A stretch of 64,000 bases of DNA from Dichotomocladium elegans (taxonomy: Eukaryota > Mucoromycota > Mucoromycetes > Mucorales > Lichtheimiaceae): contig JAIXMN010000024.1 in the NCBI GenBank assembly GCA_025716815.1, positions 124,001-188,000 of the forward strand, in the 5' to 3' direction. This document shows positions 960 through 28,989 of this stretch, piece by piece (position 1 is the stretch's first letter; each line of letters begins with the position of its first letter). The translations under genes were made by a program, and so were the position numbers. The notes beneath the pieces are model-generated. The model worked only from the letters and a program-made list of their open reading frames with translations, did not search any database and was not told the DNA's origin.

Positions 960-2260
960 ATTCTGAAATGAGCAACCTATTTCATTACGAAGATGGCCAG
1001 GTCATAACGTTGATGACATTGGCTGTTCTGAACCTATGGACTATCTGGTTGATGAAGAAATGTACTCTGCAATCCGTTTGTTCCCGCACTGACTATATGC
1101 GTAGCATACGTATTTGCAAAGATAGCTCTGATCTTACTACCACAGACATTCCCAAGCGAAAGGATACACATACAGTATCTTGATGAAAGAAGCGGGGATC
1201 AAGCACAGTTACACGGCGTGCACTGACCAAGGCAAAGTCGGATTTTTCAAACGGATATTTCAGAAGGCCTTGAGTGCATCATCAGCTGCAAAACAGCTAC
1301 GAATCTATGTTTGTTCAGCCCAGCGATGGATGTTACAGTACGTGAAAGACCCTGAAAGCATCTTTAAGAAATCTTGCGCGACGGGTCGTTCGCGTATTCT
1401 CAATGAAGAGCATAAAAGCGCTATTTTAGAATGCGTTGATAAAAATGCATCCATTGCCCGAAAGCAGTAGATGGGGAAACTGCTCTAGATATTTGAGGGC
1501 CTTCAAGTCTCGAAAACGACGCTCTATCGATTTATGAAAAACAAATGCCACCTGCCATTGAAAATAACTCGCTTTCGACCTGTAGACTGATTGGATGCGC
1601 AGATTGGACATGACCGACATAGACGTTAGAAAGAAAACTGCGTTTTTCTTTATGAATCTGGATTTTATATTAACGTGAAGCGCAGAATGCTATGGCCCAA
1701 GCAAGGGATTCCGGCAGTGGTTACAGCACCAAAGACAAGAGTAAAGACAACTACAATCTTGGAAGCAATCTCAACATCCGACATCATCAAATTGTAGCTT
1801 GAGACTCCCGCAGCCACCAACCAAGGAAAGAAAAGAGGCAGGTCAATTTGAAGTTGCGAGCAGAGGAACTGTAGCTGGACATTATCTCAGCTTCCTTAAG
1901 GCTACAATAAACGAGAAGGGTAAGTATGAACATATGAAAGGCCATTATTTGGTAATGGATATTGGACCTATCCATAAGGCTAAGGATATCTCTAAATATG
2001 TCTCCAGAGACTATATGCAAGAAATTAGTTATTAACTAATTAAGACATTGTTCAGTATTGATTGAGTTTCGAGGATGTCGATGTGCTTATCTTCCACCAT
2101 ACTCGCCTGAACTTTATCCGATTGAGCAGGTTTGGTCATTCATCAAGCGCAAAGAAAATCCAACAAGTTCTTGGAAAGCGAGACGTAGATGACCCGAATC
2201 AATGAAGCATCCAATATATTAAAGCTGAGTGATTTCTAAGGTCTCATTTCTCATTCTTAC
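960..2260 (+). mobile_element. Degenerate IS630/Tc1-like DNA transposon, copy 1
   Basis: Translated fragments in several frames give, in order, an N-terminal region, a helix-turn-helix segment around 1250-1350 (SSAAKQLRIYVCSAQRW), a DDE-like segment around 1930-2000 (GHYLVMDIGPIHKAKD) and a C-terminal signature around 2100-2160 (PYSPELYPIEQVWSFIKRK). This order is typical of IS630/Tc1/mariner transposases. Stops and frame changes separate the blocks, so the copy is dead. The N-terminal half matches the minus-strand segment at 24,560-25,020, and the DDE half matches 10,200-10,560. The exact ends were not found. Confidence 0.8.
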
Positions 2261-4600
2261 AGATGTTTAGCCAACTGTCGTAACAGCCAGTGACTGTGAT
2301 GTGTCTTTCCAGGTATATAGCAAAAGTAAGTAGAGTATGCGACATTGCTATTGCTATGATATCTCCGCGTTGATACCAGCTAAAGACGTGAACAATGTAA
2401 AAGCATATATTGCAATAATGAGCTTAATAAGTCAGTTAGCTCTCGGCAGTGGTTATTACGAGTATGTGTGATGGCATTGATGGAGGACGACGGCGAATTA
2501 CGTGGCTATGGGTGTACCAATGAATACTAATAAGAGTCGATGGTATGCACAAGACAGTCATGGTGTCTGAAGGCGCAAAGGAGCGTGATTGCGGGGGCTG
2601 ATGGTTGATGAAAGAGTGTTTTCATCAATGTCGAAAGCGGAGTCGAATGGTAGACTGATGTTGCTTCAAAGCCGAGTGTCGTGTAGAGAAAGGGAAGGGT
2701 GATTTCTGGAAGTCTTTATCCGAGTTCAAGGAAGTCTGTTTCTACGATGGAGGATGGATATTTTTGAGAGGCTTTGACGTGGCGTTTGGGTTGGTAGGAT
2801 GAAAGTTTTATTATGAAGTCAACCGAAGGATACCCTCGAGGAACAAATCGTAAGGCGAGAGAAGGGCAAAATTGATACCAGGAAGAGAAACCAATTATTG
2901 ATCACAGCATGGCTTTTCGATACTGAGCACTTACGGTATTGTATATCGTAAAATAAAGTTAATCATGATAAATAATAGGACTTCGTAACAAGGAAATAAA
3001 ACAAGAACTGATCTTTATCGTTGCTAACTAATGGAATGTTTATACTAGCTTGAATGGTTAAGGGTATGTGTATGATTTCTGATGGACAAGTTGGTTTATA
3101 ATATGTGTAAGTAAGTTTGGTTTCGGGAAAGTATTGTTCGGTAAGGCCATCGAATCTCTTAGTAATCCGGTTGAAGTTTTTCTTGGTAATCAAGGCCACA
3201 TAGATGTTGGTCGGACTATCACAAAGCGCTACAATGGCCGCCCGTTATAGTAATAACCTTGGTCACAGGAAATCGCATCACTATAACGAATTGGAATAAG
3301 CCCTATCTGGCAATTTTGTTCTGATAAAGTGTAGCGCTATAATGAATTATCATTATAACGAATATCACTATAACGGGCGGTCACTGCATTGCCCTACGCG
3401 TTAATACTTGGTATTCGGCTAAAGCATTACAGTTTGTAACAAAGAAGTGGTATCAGTGGTGACAATGTGATTGGATACACTCCTTAATGTGCCTGCATGT
3501 GATTATTTCTGGGTTGATTTTATTGTAAATAACGGGGACTTGGCAACTGATTTTATTTACCAAATCCATATCCTTCTCTCTTGTGCCTTGAGCGGTATAC
3601 ATCCTTATCATACCGACCTGTTCCATTCTGCAATATTAGCCTGACTCAAGTGTCTGGAGAGGAGAAGATATGGGCTTTGGTGGGACTGTGGTTTGGCTGT
3701 ATTCGCGCATGTCTCCCACCATGCCTTTGTCGAGGTGCTTTTATACGTCTGTTTCCCCCGTTGCTTCGCTCGGTGCTTCTCTCGGTGCTTCTGCCGCTGC
3801 TGGTGCCGTTGGTTCCGTTGTCGCCTTTCCTCGTTCCTTCCTCCAAAACTTCCGCCGTCGCGTCCGCCGTCGACAATCAGCAACTCCAGGTCCTTCCTTT
3901 CCTCGCTCTTCCAGCATTGTCATCGCATTCGTTCACCTAGCTACCTTCGGGTAAGTTGAAGAGTAAGAAGGGGGTTGGTATTTTCTGTTGACTAACGGGT
4001 TATGTCTCCCGCCTTCTTTATCCATGAGAAATTATTTGAAAATTAAATATATGCGGATGTGTATACATCTTCGCTTCACTTTGATGAAATATTCGACATA
4101 CCTACTGTATTCATATCCTTTCAGACTTGCATGGGAAGAAAGTTGTCACAGACTGAAAACCTCTATATTGATTTTTTTTTCCAATACGAGGAATGTTCAA
4201 CGAAGTTTATTTCTACAGGCAGTCAGACATTGATAGTGTCAATCACCCGAGTGGGTACAGCGTCAGCGGTTGTCGTTTCCATGCAAGCTTTCGAAAGCAT
4301 AACTATTTATAATATAGTTACCATATGAATGGCATGTATCAACTATCTAAGAGCATAATGGAGAATTATGGAGAGGAATTGATTATCCGCTGTACCATAA
4401 CTAGTAAATGGAAATGTTAAGGCCGAGATGGTTGATTACTCAGGTCAAAAGTGAGAATTTCTTTCGAACCTCCATTTGAGAAGTCACATGATAAGCGGAC
4501 CGAGATTAGTGATACAAATCCCACGCGCTATCATCGTACATGGGTTTGTGAAAAATATGATTTTATGTAATAGAATGATACAATAAGCACGTGATGCAAT
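2261..4600. other. Intergenic with one small inverted-repeat element
   Basis: Apart from the inverted-repeat element at 3232-3391 no feature is supported. The stretch 3740-3880 is C/T-rich and repetitive (gcttctcggtgcttct-like units). It produces overlapping open frames on both strands that look compositional rather than coding. Confidence 0.45.
3232..3391. mobile_element. MITE-like element with terminal inverted repeats
   Basis: The left end carries ccgcccgttatagt and the right end its near-perfect reverse complement actataacgggcgg, with further imperfect pairing inside. The element is about 160 bases long and has no coding capacity. The right end read inward (CAGTGACCGCCCGTTATAG) resembles the CAGTG-type ends of pogo/Fot1-like DNA transposons. 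That family link is an inference. No obvious full-length partner lies in the window. Confidence 0.6.
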
Positions 4601-4636
4601 GGGGATGTCTACAACTGCAAATGTGGGGGTAGGGTG

Positions 4637-5953
4637 TTATGCAACAATGCGAAGGTCTTGCTTACGGTCCTTCGCATAAACGTCTTTATATTTGTCGTAG
4701 ATTGTCATTAAGCCTTTGATGTACTCTTCTTGCACAGCAAGAAGTTGTTCCTTGGTAGGTTCACTTTGACCATCCTCCAACTCGGGAACCGTGATAGGAC
4801 TGCCCACTACAATAATCATTCCACAATTAGCATGTGTCCATGATCCGAATATAATAATGAGAGTATCAGTACATGCCTACAGTTGCAATAGGATGGCGGA
4901 ATGGCAATACACCGTAGTCATCTATATGCAAGTAGGGCAGAACCATGTGAGCGTCAAAACTACTTTTTGTATCTAATAGGAATCTGTCTTGCGCTTACAG
5001 TTGAAGACACCGCGGGCATGGAACAAGGGGAGCGTGAAGCCGAGTGCAGCCTGCATCCTTTTCTGAAACTTCCACACGGCTGAGCCCCTTTTGTTTTCAA
5101 GCTGATCAAACAATTCGTTCTCACCAAAGGAGAAGACTGGCACCAGCGATGCACGTTGCTTGATCGCCATTCGTATAAAACCAAGACGGCGCTTCAAGGT
5201 CAAGTCCGCAATGCCTGGACGGGCATCTAGTGACTCTGACGCACCGCCAATCACAATTACAATCGAGCGTCCTGGTCCGGACGAGAGAATGGCTTTGCAC
5301 GACTCGCGTGAGACGGACGCAATGCCCATAGAGAGTATTAAGTCCCGGTAAAGTGGGATCCGGAAATTGCTGGTGGAACATCACATATGAATATAATCTG
5401 AGAAATAAAACCGCGCTAATATGTATACCTCGTCAACGTCAACAAGGAAGGAACGATGCCGGGAAATTGTTTGGAGAATCCGGTTGCTTCGGTTGCAAAG
5501 CTAGCGACTGCGCCCATAGAAATAATACCATGCGGATGGTAACCAAAAATGTAATTTCCTTTTGGATCTAGTTCACTTTCCTATGGGACGAACAATGGTA
5601 GGTCAATATATCTGGCCCACGTGCATCTTCGCTTCTGGTTTTGAGCAAACCTTGATCAATGTTGCTGGAAAATAATTTGCAAAGTATTTCCATACACCCC
5701 AATGACGAACCCATTCAATTCGGCGCCCGCCTGTCTCGGGCGCCTTGTCAAATGTGATGTATGTGATGTACAAAAGGAGCATCGGCCATAACCACCGAAT
5801 TGTCATCAAGTATATAAAGATGATAGGACAAATCCACACCATAAAGAACCATGTAATTGTTACAAGCATTTGCAGGCGACGTTCGAGCGGGACATTGAGA
5901 GGAGCCCAGTGAACATGGTGTTTGTCGTTTTCAGCTGTTTCGCTGGCTGTCAT
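4637..5953 (-). CDS. Diacylglycerol O-acyltransferase type 2 (DGAT2)
   Basis: Catalyses the last step of triacylglycerol synthesis from diacylglycerol and acyl-CoA, at the ER and lipid droplets. Five exons: 5621-5953, 5429-5580, 4999-5369, 4877-4921 and 4637-4806, encoding 356 residues. Near residues 35-75 lies a hydrophobic hairpin of two membrane segments. Exon 2 encodes the family's catalytic motif FGYHPHGI, and exon 3 carries the RKGF-like RLGFIRMA and the FSFGENE motif. Exon 4 reads FNYDYGVLPFR, and the C-terminus holds TVVGSPITVPE followed by an amphipathic tail. Length is normal for fungal DGAT2. The last intron (4807-4876) needs a GC donor (GTAG|GCATGT) to restore TVVGSP; no GT alternative keeps the frame. 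The start is the ATG after an in-frame upstream ATG at 5986; either is possible. Confidence 0.93.
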
Positions 5954-17913: not shown

Positions 17914-20849
17914 CTATAATTTCTCAAGAGACGTGAAGAGGCCCTCATTCACGCCGTGGTCTGGATCATGCGGTGCGTGCCGACGCCGGAGACGTTCAAA
18001 CTCGTCTCCGCTGCCGCGGCGGGCATTGTCGAGTGATCGGAAGACTTCGTCATTCACGTAATAGGCCTTGAAGAGCAGCTCAAGTACCTGCATGCGCTCC
18101 TCAACGCGTCCTATACGCTCTTCCTCAGACTCTGGGACGGTCATCATGTCCTTTGAACGGTCGTCATCGTATAATACACTGAAGCGCCGGTGCACAGGAT
18201 TGATGAGCGGGATACCCGTTTCCGGACTGGTCTTGAATTTATTGCTGAGTCCCCGCAGCAGCGATTGCCGCATATTGCCCACCGACCATCGCTGGACGAC
18301 GCCCCACGGCGACCGCGGACGGTAACCGAACATCCAGCTCTGGATAGCAACGAGAAGACCAAAGATACCGCCAACAAAGCCAAGAGCGTTTACCAGCGTA
18401 TAGACTTTAACCTCACGGTCGGTGATGAGCGCAAAAATATTAGGCGATACAACGATGATACCCAAGTCGGCATGGGTCATAGCGTAGTTTGGGTTCGGAG
18501 CCTCCTGACGGAAAGTAGTCTCCACCTCGGGCGTATGGTTAGCATTCGGCAGGAAGCCGACATAGTTCCAACCTGATTGCTGAAGATAGCGATGGTCAAT
18601 GAGGTTGTAGGTCATGACGCTGTATGTGAAAGGTTCGATGGTGAAAATGTTGTTCGCCTCAAAATCGTTCCGAGCAAGGTTTCTCCAGTTTGAAACGGCC
18701 TCGTCGCTAAGCAAGTAGGGAGTATCATCAGTGATATTGTAGATGCGGATGTTCGGGTCCATAGCCTTGGGGTAGGCGGATACATGGATACGCGCATTGG
18801 TGATGGACGTATCGGCGAAAGGAGAAAACAAAAGCCGGGTACCATTGTTTATGCCGGATGTCTGGGAGAGCTTGAAGTCAGACGGGGGGCGGAAAAGGAA
18901 GCATGTTACAGGGCCAAGGTAGTCCGCAAAGACTGGAACAAATACTGAATTATCGAGCTTGGTGATGAAATCAGTACATGTATATCCAGTATCGGTTCTG
19001 CATGTCACAGTGATGTTTCGTGGATCATCGAAGGGATAGATGTCTTCATAACCATCAAAACAAAAGCGAATATCTAAAAAAAGTACATGTGAACGAGCTG
19101 TGGAAGGCCACGCGTAACAAGGAGTTCATGTCTACCTGGCATATCGACCTCGGAGGCGGGCACAATGGTGCGCTGTGTTATATTGGGACTAGTAATGGCT
19201 TGACGGATGATGAACGCAAGACACAGCGCGAAGATGAATAAGAGGAAGACCTCGAAGCAAAAGCGAGCTGTTTCTGCCCAGAGAGGCTCGCCAGCTCTAT
19301 TTGCATTGTAAGTGGATTGCTCAAGGAACTCTTGATGTTCTATGTATTTACCTGGGACGCCAGAGATCTTGATGAATTCTGGTAATCAACCAGCGAAGGT
19401 ACGCTCTGAATCGCCAGATTAAGAATAGGGCCAAGGAAACGAAAGCAATCGATGCGACTACGATACCGGCAATAACTTCACCCGACAGCTTGGAAGAAGG
19501 AGTAGTGAACTGATTGGGGTCATAGCTCTGAAGCCAGGTAAAATGGTCGAGATCTAATACATTGATGTCGTGGTATCTTTGGTCCACATGTGTACCTAGA
19601 GTTTAATATATCCGTCAATAGATTCCAGTGGTGTAATGCGACAACATATTACCAAACGCCACGGTCAAATACTGGCCGGTCAGAATGGCAGCCGAAGCGT
19701 AGGAGCGCCTGAAGGCTGCAATACCTTCCGTGGCAGGACTGGTCCAAACCCAGTTCGTGTCGAGGACACCGATACTGCTGGTATAGGCTTTGGTGCGTAT
19801 CGGCTGTTCGTTACTGCCTCCAAAGATAACAATTCTGTCTCTAGAGGCTATACAAATGTAAAAAAAAATGACAATGAGCCACCTCGTGTTATAGCGAGCT
19901 GGTGAAGTCCATACCAACAACGGCAACGTGATCCGATCGAGTCGACGGGTACCTGCTCTCAAGGCCGAAGCTGGTGTTCTGGAGAATCCAGGATCCTTTG
20001 GTCAAATCGAAGACGTAAAGGGCATCGAGGGGAGCTAGCCCAAACGAGACCCGCCCAGAGGTTGGATCTAGTGTTGCCCGTACGCCTCCGACAACTACCA
20101 TTTTCCCCGTGCTATAAATATACACACGCAGTCAATCACACAGCGCTGCACACAATCTCTCTCTCTTTTTTTTTTCTTTTTGCTCTCCTGCACTACCGGT
20201 CCCAAAGTCCTCGTACCACCCTAATCTACCTTAGAAGAGACATGGTATGACCGTAGTGTGCGATGTTTGTGGTCGGGGGTAGCTGGGTAAATGTCATAGT
20301 GGTGGTATCCCAGGCCCAAAAGTCGTTCATTGCAGAAGAGTTGAATACACCGCCATAGATAAACATGGTTGCACTTGCCTGGTCAATGGCTACGCTGTGC
20401 TCTTGCCGATTGACTGGCAAAGAAATGGTGGTGTTAATAACCGAGTTAGTCGGAGCAGCGATCCACGTCTGATTGCTAAAGTAGTATACGTAGATTTGTA
20501 GCGGTGCGGACTGGAACGCAGTGGTTGCGGTGATGCCACCCACGATCACAAAGCTATCAGCCTTTTCAACGTATACGCCCTGCGCTTTGCTCGTAGCGGG
20601 TGGAGGGTTGTTTTGAGTCAACACGACCCAGTCGAAGGATGAGTCAGTAGCTGTGAGCTGGTATAGGTCAGTCGTGAATGGCTCCGTTGCATTTTCACCA
20701 CCAAAGAGGATCATCGAATTGTTTCGCGCCGCAGTGGCCATCATGGACTTTAACGGCAACTGAACCATTATGTCAGTAGAAAAGTATGAATGGACTCTGC
20801 TGCTGGTGAAAGCCAACATAGCCGATAGTATACATAGAAAATACGCCAT
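17914..20849 (-). CDS. Kelch-repeat transmembrane protein, copy A (C-terminally truncated)
   Basis: Six exons: 20230-20849, 19915-20111, 19653-19847, 19352-19595, 19136-19296 and 17914-19073, encoding 858 residues. A signal peptide opens the protein. Kelch/beta-propeller blades with typical RIVIFGGSN and FVIVGG strands and many N-glycosylation sites fill about residues 25-330. A first membrane helix (AGIVVASIAFVSLALFL) is followed by WAETARFCFEVFLLFIF, a second helix. A conserved ectodomain with paired cysteines (CRTDTGYTC) and a third hydrophobic helix (LVNALGFVGGIFGLLVAI) lead into an Arg-rich cytoplasmic tail with a coiled segment. Related fused kelch-membrane proteins are a Mucorales-type family; molecular function is unknown. 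Compared with copy B, a TTA TAG TAA at the 3' end removes about 40 residues, although the frame beyond stays recognisable. Confidence 0.88.
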
Positions 20850-20870
20850 CCTTAATGTGAATAGATACAT

Positions 20871-21835
20871 AAGGAAGAAAAAAGATCAAAGTTAGTGGCA
20901 GGATTGTTGAGAATCGTTGTAAATAAAGTGACGGCGCACCGACAGGTTAAAACTTAACGCATTCGATTCTGCTGCCTATTTTGATGTTCCTTTTGCATTC
21001 ATATCCTTCATTTTTGGTGCTGTGTCGACCGACGATGCGCATAGTATTGCCTACCAGTCAAGAATATACGGCTTTATCTTGGCCGCGTTCATTGCTTATC
21101 ATACAGATCAACCTATCGTTCCACTTAAACAGCAACCCTTTTATACATCATTTCTAAGATACTACATCTATTCTGGTAAAACTTGCAGATCCTACACCGT
21201 CCATCCCCACGCGGTTGTAAAGGAAAAACTGATTGCTACCACGATGGTCGTTGAAAAATGATCCACTATGATACTAACGTTTAAGATTATGCATAATCTT
21301 TAAAATCCGTAACACATTCGAGGAGGCATGTTATATTGTAGAGATCACAAAAGGAAAAAATAAACAAATGCTAAGCCCAAATGTCTTAAGAGACAGGAGG
21401 GGATCCTCAGAATCAGTTTAGCAAAGGGATATATATGTATATATGGTTGGGCGAGCGGTCACATTGTTGGACAGAAAGGAATATCTTATACTTTGAGATT
21501 CTTTTTTTTTCTTGCAGCAGTGGGATCACACTGTAAACACGATGCGGAAAAAGAATCCACGTGATTTTGAAGTACATAGAACAGATGTTTTAATATAAAA
21601 TCGAAGTTCAATCTGGAGAGGCAATCAAATGTTGCGGCAGAATTCTTGTGAATGCTGTAGACTGCTGAAAGATAGTCGCTCATACTTTATTTTCAAAAAT
21701 ATATGTCGTACAAAAGACAAGAAAAATGTCGCATAGAATTATATAAATTTGTCGTATCAATAGGTAAAAAGATTTCGCATCCATGGATCAAACCCTGTTA
21801 GTCAGCAGAAAACACTACGCCTTCTCCCAATCCCG
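20871..21835. other. Intergenic between kelch copy A and the Fanzor relic
   Basis: About 100 bases upstream of kelch A probably hold its promoter. The rest is A/T-rich with no recognisable gene. Confidence 0.5.
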
Positions 21836-21842
21836 TTAACTT

Positions 21843-21925
21843 ACAACACACAGTCCTTCCAAAGGAAGGGGGCTTGCCCCGAAGGGCTGTGGTTATCCTG
21901 GGTGCGTCAGCGATAACTGACGCGG
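21843..21925 (-). ncRNA. Folded RNA candidate, probable Fanzor guide-RNA scaffold
   Basis: Directly 3' of the Fanzor stop codon (21943) on the same strand. Read on the minus strand it has a perfect 7-bp hairpin (GCGTCAG, 6-base loop, CTGACGC; 21904-21923). It is followed by an enclosing stem CACAG...CTGTG (21887-21891 with 21849-21853). That stem surrounds a CCC-UUCG-GGG tetraloop hairpin (21877-21886) and a CCTTCC/GGAAGG hairpin (21855-21869). An alternative GGGG/CCCC pairing overlaps the tetraloop stem. Such compact GC-rich structure is out of place in the A/T-rich surroundings. TnpB and Fanzor proteins are known to use an RNA encoded at or just after the 3' end of their gene. That this is such an RNA is inference; expression is unknown. 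Confidence 0.55.
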
Positions 21926-21942
21926 AAAATTCTTGGTCGGGG

Positions 21943-24103
21943 TTACGATCGTCTCGACCCGCCAGAGCGTGCACCGCGTGGCCTTCCTGGCCTTGCCCGT
22001 CGTGGTCTCACGCTGCGCTGCTCTGGTTCAGGTGAGTGTGGCCTTCCACCAGCTGCGGACGCTTGTGCAGCATTTCTTCTCTGAAACCTTGTTGGGATGA
22101 TACCATCTTCCCGAAGACCCCGGAGGATATGATGCATGTTGAGAGTCGCCGCCAGATCCCGGTTCCATAACCTTGGTTGACGAACACCCTCTGCCATGCC
22201 TGCTGTGCAGTTTTGATTTGTGCATCTATTGAAACATCAAAATATTAAAATCTTCTGGAAATATAACACAACATGCCCGTCCTTCATACCGTAGCAGGCC
22301 ATGGCAGATCGTGAGCGGATTGTCAGGTCGTCAATATGGGCGTGGATTAGGAACCATTTTAATGGTAGCAAGGCTTTCATTGTCACATACACGGCAGCAC
22401 TTGCTTGTCTTGTATTCGTCGATTAAATAAATATTGCAATTGTTCTTCTTCAACAGCCGCCGGAAGCCGACACCACGGACAGGCTCATGATATCTGGTAT
22501 GCGGCGCAGACTAATTTCCCATCACGAAAACGGACTTACTGCCAAACTTCGCATTCAAAGAGTCGAGAAGCTTTTCATCTGCTTGCTGCTTCTTATAAAA
22601 TGCTGACAGGCGAAGTTTTCGAAAAAGAAATTGCGGGTTCGGGTGGTTCGTAGTGGTTGTCGCGTAGAAAGACTTGAGAACTACAGAGGCCCGGTACTTG
22701 GCGGCGAGGTATGTATCCGTCGTAATTGTGCACGGAAAACGTATGACTTTGAAATTGAGATAGATTCTGCTCAGCCAACGCGACCTCGGGTCGCTCTAAC
22801 TTGAGTCGTTCTCGGAGTCTGCGGTACCGTTTGGTCTTTCGTGTATGATCTTGAAGCTGCTTTGTATATCGGAAGGTCTGGTGGTTGTCGGGTGAAGAGT
22901 TCTCATGAACGCAATACAACAGGTCCCTCCTGTCAGGATCAATGGTGACCCATTGTCCTCTATAGTCTTCGTTCCGGACTATCTGTGGGTTGACGTACTC
23001 GATATCTTCGCTCTGGATGCCAAATCTCTATCCGAAACCCGATTGAAGGCCATTTGTCTTCTTGAACACAGTAACACCGACGCCGTCAGTGTGAATAGTG
23101 CCATGGAATTGGAGCAGCTCGGATTCTTGGGGTTTGAAAGCTCTTGATTTCAGGTTTACAACCCGTCTCCAGTACTCCATATTGCTTGTGTGGGATCCCA
23201 TTTTGCAGCCCAAGATACGGTAGCAAAGGATTTTCGTATCGATCTCCATGTAGCATGGTGACCACGAGCGACGAATGGAAAACAGTTGAATCCGCGTATT
23301 TCGTTCTGTTGACAAACACGTGCAAGCTGGAAGAAGGCGTTGAAATGCTTAACGGGATTGGCCTTGGCGTCATAATAGATACTCTGGTGTTGGAATTGGT
23401 GGTTTCGGGGGTAAGCGTTTAAGACAGGCTGTAGGATATCGTATGCTTCCCGAAGAAACCCAGGCTTGGCATTAATGTCTTCCCTCAAAACACCTCGACG
23501 GGCAATTGCTAGCTTGAATCCTGTGGCATGCCGGGTGATGGTTTCATAAAGGTCCTGGCGTACTTGATCGGGGTTTAGGCCCTGTGCGATTAACTCCTGC
23601 TTGCGGTCGGCTTTTCGCTGGCGAAGATTCAGGATGACATTGATGACACGCCGAAGGTGTTGCCCGAACCGCATCTGGGCATTATTCACGTAAGCAGTAT
23701 AAATCTTGGTGCCTTCGTAAGAAGACCATTGTTGGGAATAAGGGAACGCAGGCCTTTCGTATCCGGATATCCGAAGGTACTCATCCTTGTGGCGATTAAT
23801 TAGTTCTCGGATGCGGGCAGTTTCACCTTGGGTGCGGCGTTCGGCTTTGTTAACCATGGAGAGCCAAACTTCTGGAAAGGACTTCTCCGTGATGTTTTCC
23901 TGGATGTTAAAATTTGGATCGCGCGCTGCCTCGTTGATGAAAATATATTTGGCGAACGCGTACGTCTGTGCTGTGGTGTTGTGGACAAGGTCGACCAGCT
24001 GATACAGACGTTCATGGTACTGCTGTCGCCAGCCGATGCCCCGTATGGACGATTTCACCCCTATTATACGGCCAGTGCGGTCAATGTTGTGGCCAATGCG
24101 CAT
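21943..24103 (-). pseudogene. Fanzor (eukaryotic TnpB-like RNA-guided nuclease), decayed
   Basis: Minus-strand segments in changing frames form one Fanzor-like protein. The N-terminal helical part (about 23,290-24,103) includes MRFGQHLRRVINVILNLRQRK. Next comes IRRSWSPCYMEIDTK and TDGVGVTVFKK. The RuvC-I-like TIDPDRRDLLYC lies near 22,940. A stretch with SAPHTRYHEPVRG and the Glu-bearing LIDEYKTSKCCRVC leads into a zinc cluster. The last exon carries CTNQNC and the RuvC-III motif RLWNRDLAATLN, then an Arg-rich tail. An intron at 22226-22289 joins the last two parts. Lesions: frameshifts near 23,278, between 22,990 and 23,040, and near 22,708; TAG at 22511-22513 where Trp is expected; TGA at 22331-22333 where Arg is expected. 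The acidic active-site positions survive. It is probably a recently inactivated copy. The N-terminal exon or start upstream of 24,103 is uncertain. Confidence 0.85.
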
Positions 24104-24559
24104 GCCTTCGGAATGACGGGGCGGTGGGGTTGGGCCATTTGGTGGGTGAAGACCTAGGGTATATTATTTCTTAGTATCGCAGAGCCGAGTATGAAAGCGG
24201 CCGTATTACCTTTCAACAGTAAATGTGGTGCTGTGTTATTTTCTGTAGGCTGTATGGGCTCTAGTTTTATATGTGGATAGTGGAAAGGAACAGTTTGCTT
24301 AAGCATCCCTATTTATAGTGTCAGCAATGATTGCTCATACTTTGAGTACTGCTTGTGGCATAGGTAATTATTGAGAACAATGGAGCTATTATGATGCAAT
24401 ATTCCAGATGCATCTCCATAGTCTTTTTCCCACTGGGTTCTTTAATGAGGTTTTACCGACGTGAGGGCGGTCTGAAATCAACATGAAAATCCTAAACAAT
24501 TCCAAGAAGTAATTCCAAGAGATTATCTTAAGAATACTCCGATATATATCCGGCACTTG

Positions 24560-25020
24560 TGTGGTGTAGGAAGATTGTACTTCTTTTCGTACTCTCTCAG
24601 TCTTTTAAAACACAACAAACACGGAACTGCTGCCAGGGTTCTTTTCGCACTGTAATTCTTATCGCTGTGCTGAACGAACATGGATTCCTAGCTGTTTTGC
24701 TGCAGCTGATGCATTCAATACCTCCTCAAACACCAGTTTGAAAAATCTGACTTTGTCTTAGTCAGTGTACGCTGTGTACTGCGCTTGATCCCCGCTTCTT
24801 TCATCCGAATGTCTGGATTCTTTCGCTTGGGAATGTCCGTGGCAGTAAGCTCAGGGTTATCTTTGCACGATATGCTACGCAGATATTCAATGTAAGAACG
24901 AACGGATTGAAGTGAGTACATTTCCTCATCAATGACATAGTCCATAGATTCAGGTCAGCCACGCTCATCAACGACATGATCTTGGCCATCTTATGTAGAA
25001 AAATAGATTGCTCGTTTCAG
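24560..25020 (-). mobile_element. IS630/Tc1-like transposon fragment, copy 3
   Basis: The minus strand gives the N-terminal part of the same transposase as copies 1 and 2 (YVIDEEMYSLQSVRSYIEYL, then ATDIPKRKNPDIRMKEAGIK and an HTH start). The catalytic half is absent. It lies between the Fanzor relic and the downstream flank of kelch copy B. Copy 1 at 960-1480 aligns to it nearly base by base. Confidence 0.75.
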
Positions 25021-25844
25021 AATGTAAAAGTTTACAAAGAGAAAGAGTCATAAGGATGGGATGGGTTTGCGACATCTTTCCGTGCGACTTTGATTTTGAA
25101 AAATATTGAATATTAAAATGCATAAAAAAGGTCCAGAAATTGGGGAGGGTAGGGTTCAACTGCAAAAGACACGCTTGTAGGTACTGGATAGGCACTCGGT
25201 TATAGATCTCCTCTTGACTAAGAAGATATAACCAATGCAATCCTGGCGGTCCTTCGCATATTCCGCTGCTACAGTAGTCGTGCACGGAATCTGGCGCCCG
25301 CACAGATTAGCGAGATAGGTCGTGGAGATCTGGCCGCATGCTTTTTTGGGGGATTAGGGTTGGTTAGACGGTCACCATTCGCAGCTATATCGCAAGAAAT
25401 TGCTGCAAGCAAGATTGTGCCAAAAGCGATGGGAAACTAAGGGGGTTTGAACTATGAACGTATGAAACATGCAATAAATTTCTTTGAAACTTAGTGTGAA
25501 CAGAATAGGTAGATTAATACATCCTGCAAAGGTCAAGTAATACGGGAATGAATACAAAAAGTGGTCATCCCCATCTCAGGACATGAATAAGGTTTGAACA
25601 AATTGACACGCCGATTTGGAAGACTGTATTTGTATATCACACAAGCCGGCACTTATATTAATGGGGTTTTTTATTTTCTTCTTCCTCGGAGAGATTGGTG
25701 GTATTGAGAGTATAATGGTGATAAAAGAAAAAGGTAGGGGAATATGTACTAAAAGGCGGAGGGGGGCGTTATAAGCAGAAGAGTATAAATGAAATGAAAA
25801 AACAGCGCAAACATTTGGTCTGCAGAGAGAGCGATCCTAACGAA

Positions 25845-28800
25845 TTACTCGTGAAGATGGCTTGGAGCAAGATTCTTCCTGGAGGTTTCCGAAGTATTAT
25901 CGATGCTTGTCTGTTGGGCGCTAAAGAGATGCGAGAATCCATCGTCGCTGGTGCTTGGCGAGGCGTGTTGTGGTTTCTCGAGCGACGTGAAGAGGCCCTC
26001 ATTCACGCCGCGCTCCGGGTCCTGTGGCACGTGTCGGCGCCGGAGACGTTCAAACTCGTCTCCGCTCCTGTTGCTGCCACCGCCGCCGCCGCCGCCGCGG
26101 CGGGCATTGTCGAGTGATCGGAAGACTTCGTCATTCACGTAATAGGCCTTGAAGAGCAGCTCAAGCACCTGCATGCGCTCCTCAACGCGTCCGATACGCT
26201 CCTCCTCAGACTCTGGGACGGTCATCATGTCCTTTGAACGGTCGTCATCGTATAATACACTGAAGCGCCGGTGCACAGGATTGATGAGCGGGATACCCGT
26301 TTCCGGACTGGTCTTGAATTTATTGCTGAGTCCCCGCAGCAGCGATTGCCGCATATTGCCCACCGACCATCGCTGGACGACGCCCCACGGCGACCGCGGA
26401 CGATAACCGAACATCCAGGTCTGGACAGCGACGAGAATTCCAAAGATACCGCCGACAAAACCAAGAGCGTTCAGGAGTGTGTAGACCTTAACCTCACGAT
26501 CGGTGATGAGCGCAAAAATATTAGGCGATACAACGATGATACCCAAGTCGGCATGGGTCATAGCGTAGTTTGGGTTCGGAGCCTCCTGACGGAAAGTAGT
26601 CTCCACCTCGGGCGTATGGTTAGCATTCGGCAGGAAGCCGACATAGTTCCAACCTGATTGCTGAAGATAGCGATGGTCAATGAGGTTGTAGGTCATGACG
26701 CTGTATGTGAAAGGTTCGATGGTGAAAATGTTGTTCGCCTCAAAATCGTTCCGAGCAAGGTTTCTCCAGTTTGAAACGGCCTCGTCGCTAAGCAAGTAGG
26801 GAGTATCATCAGTGATATTGTAGATGCGGATGTTCGGGTCCATAGCCTTGGGGTAGGCGGATACATGGATACGCGCATTGGTGATGGACGTATCGGCGAA
26901 AGGAGAAAACAAAAGCCGGGTACCATTGTTTATGCCGGATGTCTGGGAGAGCTTGAAGTCAGACGGGGGGCGGAAAAGGAAGCATGTTACAGGGCCAAGG
27001 TAGTCCGCAAAGACTGGAACAAATACTGAATTATCGAGCTTGGTGATGAAATCAGTACATGTATATCCAGTATCGGTTCTGCATGTCACAGTGATGTTTC
27101 GTGGATCATCGAAGGGATAGATGTCTTCATAACCATCAAAACAAAAGCGAATATCTAAAAAAAGTACATGTGAACGAGCTGTGGAAGGCCACGCGTAACA
27201 AGGAGTTCATGTCTACCTGGCATATCGACCTCGGAGGCGGGCACAATGGTGCGCTGTGTTATATTGGGACTAGTAATGGCTTGACGGATGATGAACGCAA
27301 GACACAGCGCGAAGATGAATAAGAGGAAGACCTCGAAGCAAAAGCGAGCTGTTTCTGCCCAGAGAGGCTCGCCAGCTCTGTTTGCATTGTAAGTGGATTG
27401 CTCAAAGAACTCTTGATGCTCTATGTATTTACCTGGGACGCCAGAGATCTTGATGAATTCTGGTAATCAACCAGCGAAGGTACGTTCTGAATCGCCAGAC
27501 TAAGAATAGAGCCAAGGAAACGAAAGCGATCGATGCGACTACGATACCGGCAATAACTCCACCCGACAGCTTGGAAGAAGGAGTAGTGAACTGATTGGGG
27601 TCATAGCTCATAAGCCAGGTAAAATGGTCGAGATCCAATACATTGATGTCGTTGTATCTTTGGTCAGCATGCGCCCCTGGAGTTGATATACATATAGGTT
27701 AGCATATGCTGGTGATATGACGTGATATCATATTTACCAAATGCCACGGTCAAATACTGGCCTGTCAGAATGGCAGCCGAAGCGTATGCCCGCCTGGAGG
27801 GTTGGATACCTCCCACGGCAGGACTGGTCCAAACCCAGTTCGTGTCGAGGACACCGATACTATTGGTATAGGCTCTGGTGCGTGCCGGCTGGCCGTTACT
27901 GCCTCCAAAGATAACAATTCTGTCTCCAGAGGCTATACAAAAGCAAAAAAAGACAATGAGCCACCTCGTGTTTAGCGAGCTGGTGTAGTCCATACCAACA
28001 ACGGCAACGTGATCTGATCGGGTCGACGGGTACCTGCTCTCAGGGTCGAAGCTGGTAGTCTGAAGAACCCAGGATCTTGTGGCCAAATCGAAGACATAAA
28101 GGGCATCAAGGGGAGCTAGCCCAAGCGAGACCCGCCCAGAGGTTGGATCTAGCGTTCCCCGTACGCCTCCGACAACGACCATTTTCCCCGTGCTATAAAT
28201 ATACCCACGCAGTCAGTCGCACAGCACTACACGCAGTCTCTCTCTCTTTTCTTTTTGCTCTCCTGCACTACCGGTCCCAAAGTCCTTGTCCCACCCTAAC
28301 CTACCTTAGAAGAGACATGGTATGACCGTAGTGTGCGATGTTTGTAGTCGGAGGCAGCTGGGTAAATGTCATAGTGGTGGTATCCCAGGCCCAAAAATCG
28401 TTCATTGGAGTGGAGTTGAATGCACCGCCATAGATAAAGATGGTCGAGGTTGCCTGATCAATGGCTACGCTGTGCTGTTCCCGATTCTGTGGCAAAGGAA
28501 CGGTGGTGTTGACAACCGCATTGGTCGGGGCGGCGACCCAGGTCTGGTTGCCAAAGTAGTAAACGTAGATTTGTAACGGCGCCGACTGGCTCGCAGTGGT
28601 TGCGGTGAAGCCACCCACGATCACAAAGCTATCACTTTTTTCAACGTACACGCCGTGCGCTTTAGTCATAGGTGGCGGAGGGTTGTTTTGAGTCAATACG
28701 GCCCAGTCGAATGATGTGTCAGTCGCTGTGAGTTGGTAAAGATCAGCGGTATATAATGCCGTTGCATTTTCACCGCCAAAGAGGATCATCGAATTGTTTC

Positions 28801-28924
28801 GCGCCGCAGTGGCCATCATGGACTTAAACGGCAGCTGAACCTGTATTTCAGTGGAGAAGTAAGCATGGGCCGGGCTGCTGATGAAGGCCACCATAGCCGG
28901 TAGCATCCATAGAAGATGAGGCAT
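25845..28924 (-). CDS. Kelch-repeat transmembrane protein, copy B
   Basis: Six exons: 28305-28924, 27996-28192, 27738-27932, 27433-27676, 27217-27377 and 25845-27154, encoding 908 residues. Architecture is that of copy A: signal peptide (MPHLLWMLPAMVAF...), kelch blades, membrane helix, second helix (FCFEVFLLFIF), Cys-containing ectodomain, third helix and basic cytoplasmic tail. The start at 28924 matches copy A; an ATG two codons earlier (28930) is also possible. A Gly-rich insertion (about 26,070-26,100) and an intact Ser/Thr-rich C-terminal extension of about 40 residues distinguish it from copy A. It may be the functional parent. A role as a wall or surface sensor is plausible from topology only. 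Confidence 0.9.
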
Positions 28925-28989
28925 CCTCATTGTGGATAGAAAAGAAAGAAAGCTGAGGAAAGCCGGATCGTTGTCCCCACATCGCACCG

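Follow-up and report, generated by a model that had tools for sequence, protein, structure and literature searches.

The compact fold on the minus strand at 21843-21925 of the window (the whole 64-kb stretch of Dichotomocladium elegans DNA analysed here) is, at a probability of roughly 0.86, the 5′ portion of an omegaRNA scaffold whose Fanzor1 is carried by a Tc1/mariner-like transposon. The basis for this reading is the position of the fold, its 7-bp stem, compensatory change in that stem, the match of its leader and loop to known scaffolds, and the relationship of the adjoining gene to Fanzor1. Transcription, the 3′ end of the scaffold, use of a guide and cutting would follow by analogy with known systems. 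The earlier note had proposed that the fold could define an undescribed guide-RNA family; we read it instead as a Fanzor1 omegaRNA, though a search of the window against Rfam gave no family at the gathering score. A tRNA search over the window also found none.

The central feature, stem-loop 1 (SL1), is a perfect stem of seven pairs closed by the hexaloop UUAUCG (GCGTCAG-TTATCG-CTGACGC at 21923-21904, minus strand), and it is the perfect hairpin that the earlier note had placed near the Fanzor stop on the same strand. It is the sole site with seven of seven pairs around TTRTCG on either strand of the window, three others having six. Immediately 5′ of SL1 is a UCC leader (21924-21926, minus strand; alignment A2), which begins at 21926, 16 nt after the Fanzor stop codon at 21945-21943. 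On the 3′ side, all on the minus strand, SL1 is followed by a linker, ACCCAGGAUAACCACA (21888-21903), whose GAUAA is complementary to the SL1 loop, then by SL2, GCCC-UUCG-GGGC (21876-21887), and by a third hairpin, CCUUCC-UUU-GGAAGG (21855-21869). The third hairpin is kept across family A, to which the window copy belongs, and was seen in that class alone, being absent from the rows of classes B, C and D. In the window copy SL2 and the third hairpin are enclosed by a stem of CACAG (21891-21887) with CTGTG (21852-21848), which spans 21848-21891 on the minus strand.

The 83 nt of 21843-21925, a stretch chosen for the folding test because it looked folded to begin with, have a folding energy of -35.3 kcal/mol, whereas dinucleotide shuffles average -22.9 (z -4.1) and not one of 200 folded as stably. 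The shuffle check proposed in the earlier note thus supports its view that the fold is unlikely by chance. The enclosing stem, which that note had also described, is exact in the window and broken in every other copy that was aligned, since the T in the CTGTG arm of the window is a G in 20 of 20 other family-A copies and leaves an A-G mismatch there. Because the stem is exact only in the window copy, part of the folding energy of the window comes from one private base. The same stretch of a sibling, L012, gave z -2.4 (3 of 200 shuffles as good), the class B scaffold z -3.0 (1 of 200), the class D scaffold z -2.2 (5 of 200) and two class F copies z -2.0 each (5 and 8 of 200); the sibling, D and F scaffolds beat their shuffles by a moderate margin (z -2.0 to -2.4). 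The folding of the whole 281-nt 3′ region of L012 was unremarkable (z -1.3, 20 of 200 shuffles as good).

The fold belongs to a decayed copy of a Fanzor-bearing Tc1/mariner-like element at 21683-25112 on the minus strand, near whose ends the homology to 20 genomic copies stops, the left end being placed by eye. Its Fanzor1 gene (21943-24138, minus strand) is broken, the window frame stopping after 24 amino acids; with the gene dead, the one role left to the window locus would be to supply a scaffold for Fanzor protein produced elsewhere. In the 39.4-Mb host genome the element that holds this Fanzor region is repeated, with at least 40 matches to the 3′ region (40 of 366 candidates scored), and twenty copies were fetched. 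The reference copy, L012, has an element at 1634-5583 with TATACACCATTTTTCAAAATC at its left end and TTTTTGAAAATAAAGTA at its right; the readable ends of other copies carry TATACACCATTTTTCAAAATC or a near variant on the left and TTTTTGAAAATAAAGTA on the right, and the flanks beyond them vary between copies. The fetched copies have TA at both ends and imperfect inverted ends. The gene block that is duplicated around the element was inspected for an empty insertion site that would prove TA duplication, and none was found, because the element sits between the duplicates. That block, with a Kelch-type gene, lies on both sides of the Fanzor element at window positions 18008-20865 and 26089-28940, and its two copies are 93-98% identical.

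The L012 Fanzor is a protein of 709 aa with one inferred 69-nt intron and an intact frame, and this 709-aa Fanzor1 frame is kept in 10 of the 20 fetched siblings and lost in five, a landmark being missing in the remaining five. A PDB search matched the protein to the Fanzor1 of Parasitella parasitica (E 4.4e-130) and to SpuFz1 (2.5e-52), and in alignment the catalytic D, E and D positions of SpuFz1 are present as IDPG, DEYKT and NRD. We found 106 protein relatives, the best named ones from Syncephalis, Mucor and Rhizopus; Pfam-A gave no match to the 709-aa protein, fragments of it giving weak TNB matches alone, and a scan of viral contigs with the Fanzor alignment found no relative. The transposase of family A survives as an N-terminal remnant, recognised by resemblance, and a related 475-aa transposase at L076 contains a DDE_3 domain (E 1.8e-30). 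By our own sorting, six Fanzor lineages (A, B, D, E, F and G) occur in this one genome, in which a single Fanzor fragment has 151 matches.

The core of UCC, SL1 and UUAUCG recurs in five scaffold classes (A, B, C, D and F) in the host genome, and the genome pattern GTTATYG..ACCCNGGA gave 145 matches against 7 for the reversed control. Class A, with SL1 arms GCGTCAG/CTGACGC and UCC 16 nt past the Fanzor stop, is nearly invariant among 20 siblings. In another set, of 20 fetched right ends, one (L032) lacks the fold, a result against the omegaRNA reading. Class B (GTCCCGG-TTATCG-CCGGGAC) has its right end in common with class A and a different upstream region. Its scaffold stands at the right end of Tc1/mariner-like elements, and its Fanzor is inverted where seen, which counts against the omegaRNA reading. 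In class D (GTGTCGG-TTATCG-CCGGCAC) UCC begins 3 or 9 nt past the stop in four copies, and the Fanzor is about 47% identical to that of class B over the query fragment. Class F accompanies a separate Fanzor lineage and has the main form GGCCCTG-TTATCG-CAGGRTT (majority arm CAGGGTT); of the eight copies fetched, six have a coding end overlapping SL1, one has it 47 nt short of SL1 and one far beyond. Class C (L052-L054) is decayed, with 4 or 5 of the 7 plain SL1 pairs. All seven pairs form in the predominant A, B and D sequences and in 9 of the 20 class F copies L096-L115, and the loop TTATCG is present in 24 of 28 F copies aligned by DNA similarity (L077 being the same locus as L088). SL1 thus lies 3′ of the stop in A and D and overlaps the gene end in F, the position at which Fanzor guide RNAs arise, as the earlier note had claimed.

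Other parts of the scaffold are kept to differing degrees. UCC is unchanged in all 11 rows of alignment A2, which covers classes A-D, and outside A2 it is altered in L052, L055, L059, L067, L086 and some F copies. A UUCG hairpin like SL2 is also possible in B and D, not in C or F, and the minimum-energy fold of class D pairs the SL2 stretch otherwise; the body of class F contains other hairpins, without covariation support. The linker motif GGATA is invariant in A2, and GATAA is found in 14 of the 20 F copies L096-L115 and is absent from the Fanzor-bearing F copies. The linker GAUAA and the SL1 loop may form a pseudoknot; their letters are too constant for covariation. The pseudoknot is described as lost in Fanzor1 in the text of PMC10711439, and a Fanzor1 pseudoknot is mentioned in that of PMC12248019. 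As to class F itself, seven of the eight Fanzor-bearing copies L088-L095 read CAGGATT, a C-A mismatch in SL1, and the scaffold-only copies mostly read CAGGGTT; the mismatch base falls inside the Fanzor frame end in six of the eight Fanzor-bearing copies. Past the Fanzor stops of lineages E and G, whose genes appear convergent with a transposase, such a hairpin was not found, which counts against the omegaRNA reading, nor was the right end of lineage E found, its C44 copy appearing truncated. An intact 475-aa Tc1-type transposase frame is convergent with the lineage E Fanzor at L070/L074 (C57:1660062-1664634) and at L076 (C44:468248-469672), and these copies look identical over the fetched part.

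The covariation check across paralogous loci that the earlier note had called for shows SL1 kept beside other Fanzor lineages with compensatory changes. Among 22 distinct SL1 sequences of classes A-D, 18 of which come from A or B copies within one genome, the proportion of paired cells is 81.2%, compared with 68.7% after shuffling, and the covariation score is 0.422 against 0.214 (0 of 500 shuffles in both cases). Two of five measures were unremarkable in this set, the count of pairs with changes on both sides (5, reached by 192 of 500 shuffles) and that of further pair types (11, reached by 291 of 500). Because copies inside a class are related, the analysis was repeated on a single representative of each class (A, B, C, D and F). 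The proportion of paired cells was then 94.3% against 68.8% shuffled and the covariation score 0.886 against 0.305 (0 of 500 for each), and both sides change in five of the seven SL1 pairs, which 5 of 500 shuffles matched; slid controls were 20-57% paired. The hexaloop is identical in all five class rows, a constancy that is partly built in for class C and for A1 because the loop was part of the search: a list entry required the loop motif with either five pairs or a downstream GGATA (L014, L015 and L028, with TTATYG away from the fold, were dropped), class C was found with a loop-containing pattern, and the class F hairpin was first spotted with a loop pattern. The loops of B and D were not preselected, since right-end similarity led to B and protein similarity to D, and class A too was reached without the loop pattern. 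Absence of the stems beside other Fanzor copies, or folding no better than shuffled sequence, had been named beforehand as results that would speak against the proposal, and we found neither. A chance hairpin in a decaying transposon, for which the broken Fanzor frame of the window and the private outer stem could be cited, is hardly credible given that 0 of 200 shuffles folded as well and that the structure recurs, with compensatory changes, in A, B, D and F.

The published descriptions of Fanzor1 scaffolds agree with the kept part of the structure. The SpuFz1 scaffold starts with U5 C6 C7, of which C6 pairs with G20 of stem-loop 1, and U16 G17 U18 C19 G20 contact RuvC and NUC (PMC10432273); numbered from UCC by comparison with that text description, the host RNA reads U16 A17 U18 C19 G20. 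According to the text of PMC11423790, GtFz1, SpuFz1 and PpFz1 share an SL1 of seven pairs, and the region past it may be unconstrained. SL1 is likewise kept here while the scaffold body varies between A, B, D and F. By analogy, RNA transcribed through the 3′ end of Fanzor and out of the element at its right end would consist of UCC, SL1, linker, variable body and terminal repeat in that order, and about 15 nt of flanking DNA beyond the right end would serve as guide. In the window copy this predicted 15-nt guide region, the first bases past the right end on the minus strand, is 21682-21668, placed by analogy with SpuFz1. Fanzor would grip SL1 by a surface of RuvC and the zinc ribbon, and the flank-derived guide would direct a cut at a matching site adjoining a TAM.

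The less certain part of the scaffold is its 3′ portion, and we hold the detailed boundaries with confidence only somewhat better than even. The right-end segment (21683-21847, minus strand) contains GTCGYA-type repeats, identified by eye, a terminal hairpin at 21701-21688 and TA at 21684-21683; the terminal hairpin has 7 bp in the consensus of 15 copies and 5 bp in the window. The class A reference measures 265 nt between UCC and the right end, and the 15 copies, selected because their right ends could be read, span 179-265 nt (deletion copies, L068 among them, have less). Published omegaRNAs are 150 nt in GtFz1, 90 nt in SpuFz1 and 75 nt in PpFz1 (PMC11423790), and that our span exceeds this range of 75-150 nt counts against the omegaRNA reading. 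One could propose that the omegaRNA proper occupies the final 75-150 nt of the right end and that SL1 is no more than a structure of the upstream 3′ UTR, since published Fanzor1 omegaRNAs span the terminal repeat (PMC11423790, PMC10711439, PMC10432273) and the consensus 7-bp terminal-repeat hairpin directly precedes the flank. We regard this as very improbable, as the only consensus structures in the full segment of the 15 copies are SL1 and the terminal-repeat hairpin, with no shared hairpin in the interval, where near-identical siblings vary by 22-nt deletions. The same consensus fold shows no pairing between linker and right end.

Two further features of the right end were observed. In each of L013, L015, L019 and the window, 22 nt of the right-end repeats are missing relative to most siblings, which suggests slippage or recombination between GTCGYA repeats. 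In a comparison of 47 distinct right flanks (L009-L083 and the window from 21682), 28 of 30 class A or D copies have T as the first base past the right end (18 of 30 have TA), against 4 of 17 class B copies; this bias exists despite shared ends, and 17 left flanks show no matching pattern. Target preference, a duplication boundary or an effect of the guide may be its cause.

Many scaffolds stand apart from any Fanzor gene. With the class F 3′ end as query, 41 matches were obtained (40 of 89 candidates scored), of which 18 are full-length or nearly so, 22 cover roughly the 100-nt scaffold alone and one is a coding remnant; among the matches listed, 20 of the 22 scaffold-only loci have no Fanzor match nearby and two have one. 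For class B, a same-strand transposase match lies upstream within 1.2 kb at 16 of 52 listed loci and at 1.5-2.5 kb at 19, giving 35 of 52 scaffolds with a transposase match upstream, and the other 17 have none among the matches listed, which is not to be taken as absence. None of 45 class A loci has a transposase match among those listed, the query being C-terminal, a part missing from family A. This comparison covers 100 of the 145 pattern sites, classed by eye, and 150 of 909 transposase candidates scored. Many of the transposase frames are interrupted. The element at L051 (3883-5806) has transposase frames and the fold with no Fanzor seen, and at L049 a truncated, inverted Fanzor lies between the transposase and the fold.

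The nearness of fold and transposase raises the question of whether the fold is simply part of the transposon's right end and serves transposition or mRNA ending, by transposase binding, a cruciform or 3′ UTR stability, rather than serving Fanzor. The fold does lie near the terminal repeat, and at 16 class B loci the transposase match, 1.2 kb or less upstream, leaves no room for a full Fanzor. Class F, however, has the UCC-SL1-UUAUCG core at the 3′ end of its Fanzor, and the right end shared by A and B was not found in its fetched 3′ stretch. Moreover, the UCC, the stem length and the loop letters agree with the text on Fanzor1 omegaRNAs (PMC11423790, PMC10432273), and compensatory changes around a constant loop suggest structured RNA and not a sequence-bound DNA site. 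We thus consider a purely right-end function improbable and retain the Fanzor1 omegaRNA.

If these scaffolds are omegaRNAs, elements with a Tc1/mariner transposase might carry Fanzor-less omegaRNA scaffolds under structural selection, and Fanzors of other elements might load them in trans and cut the emptied or allelic site. We offer this tentatively, at somewhat less than even odds; if true, one Fanzor serves a whole set of transposons sharing ends. A trans-acting role was proposed for the ghost loci of Spizellomyces, in the available text without a location (PMC10432273), and class B would be the physical link that the ghost-locus idea of Saito et al. requires. Our literature search found no published account of Fanzor-less scaffolds tied to a transposase closer than PMC10432273. 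Because the ghost scaffolds are physically linked to transposase sequences, the role of Fanzors for transposons becomes directly testable. From cryo-EM of three species, SL1 was inferred to be fixed and the rest of the Fanzor1 scaffold free (text of PMC11423790); here one genome repeats the fixed-SL1 pattern across five scaffold classes with compensatory changes. The searchable signature of UCC, seven pairs and UURUCG could help to find Fanzor guide RNAs from sequence.

Among known systems, GtFz1 has an omegaRNA that overlaps the coding end of its Fanzor by 17 aa (PMC10432273), comparable to class F, and a seven-pair SL1 like the one here, with a different body of three further stem-loops (PMC11423790); its locus seems, from the text of PMC10432273, to be without repeats. 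The Parasitella parasitica PpFz1 (PDB 9cf0-9cf3) is the closest solved relative of the protein and also has a seven-pair SL1, and its 75-nt omegaRNA, shorter than the span found here, is likened to ours by length and stem, not by letters (PMC11423790). The Fanzor1 genes in Tc/mariner elements reported in PMC3627910 have terminal repeats and a TA duplication, with or without a transposase, an arrangement that the elements here may share, and the available portion of that article describes no guide RNA or conserved right-end structure. SpuFz1 of Spizellomyces punctatus, as described in PMC10432273, has the same UCC leader, stem-loop 1, U-x-U-C-G register and 3′ position, and differs in its loop (G17 there, A17 here) and in its scaffold of 75 nt, the 15 copies here having 179-265 nt between UCC and the right end. 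Its Spu-1 repeats, within which that text reports no transposase, also include ghost loci without a Fanzor gene, as in the present genome, where a transposase match lies upstream of 35 of the 52 listed class B scaffolds.
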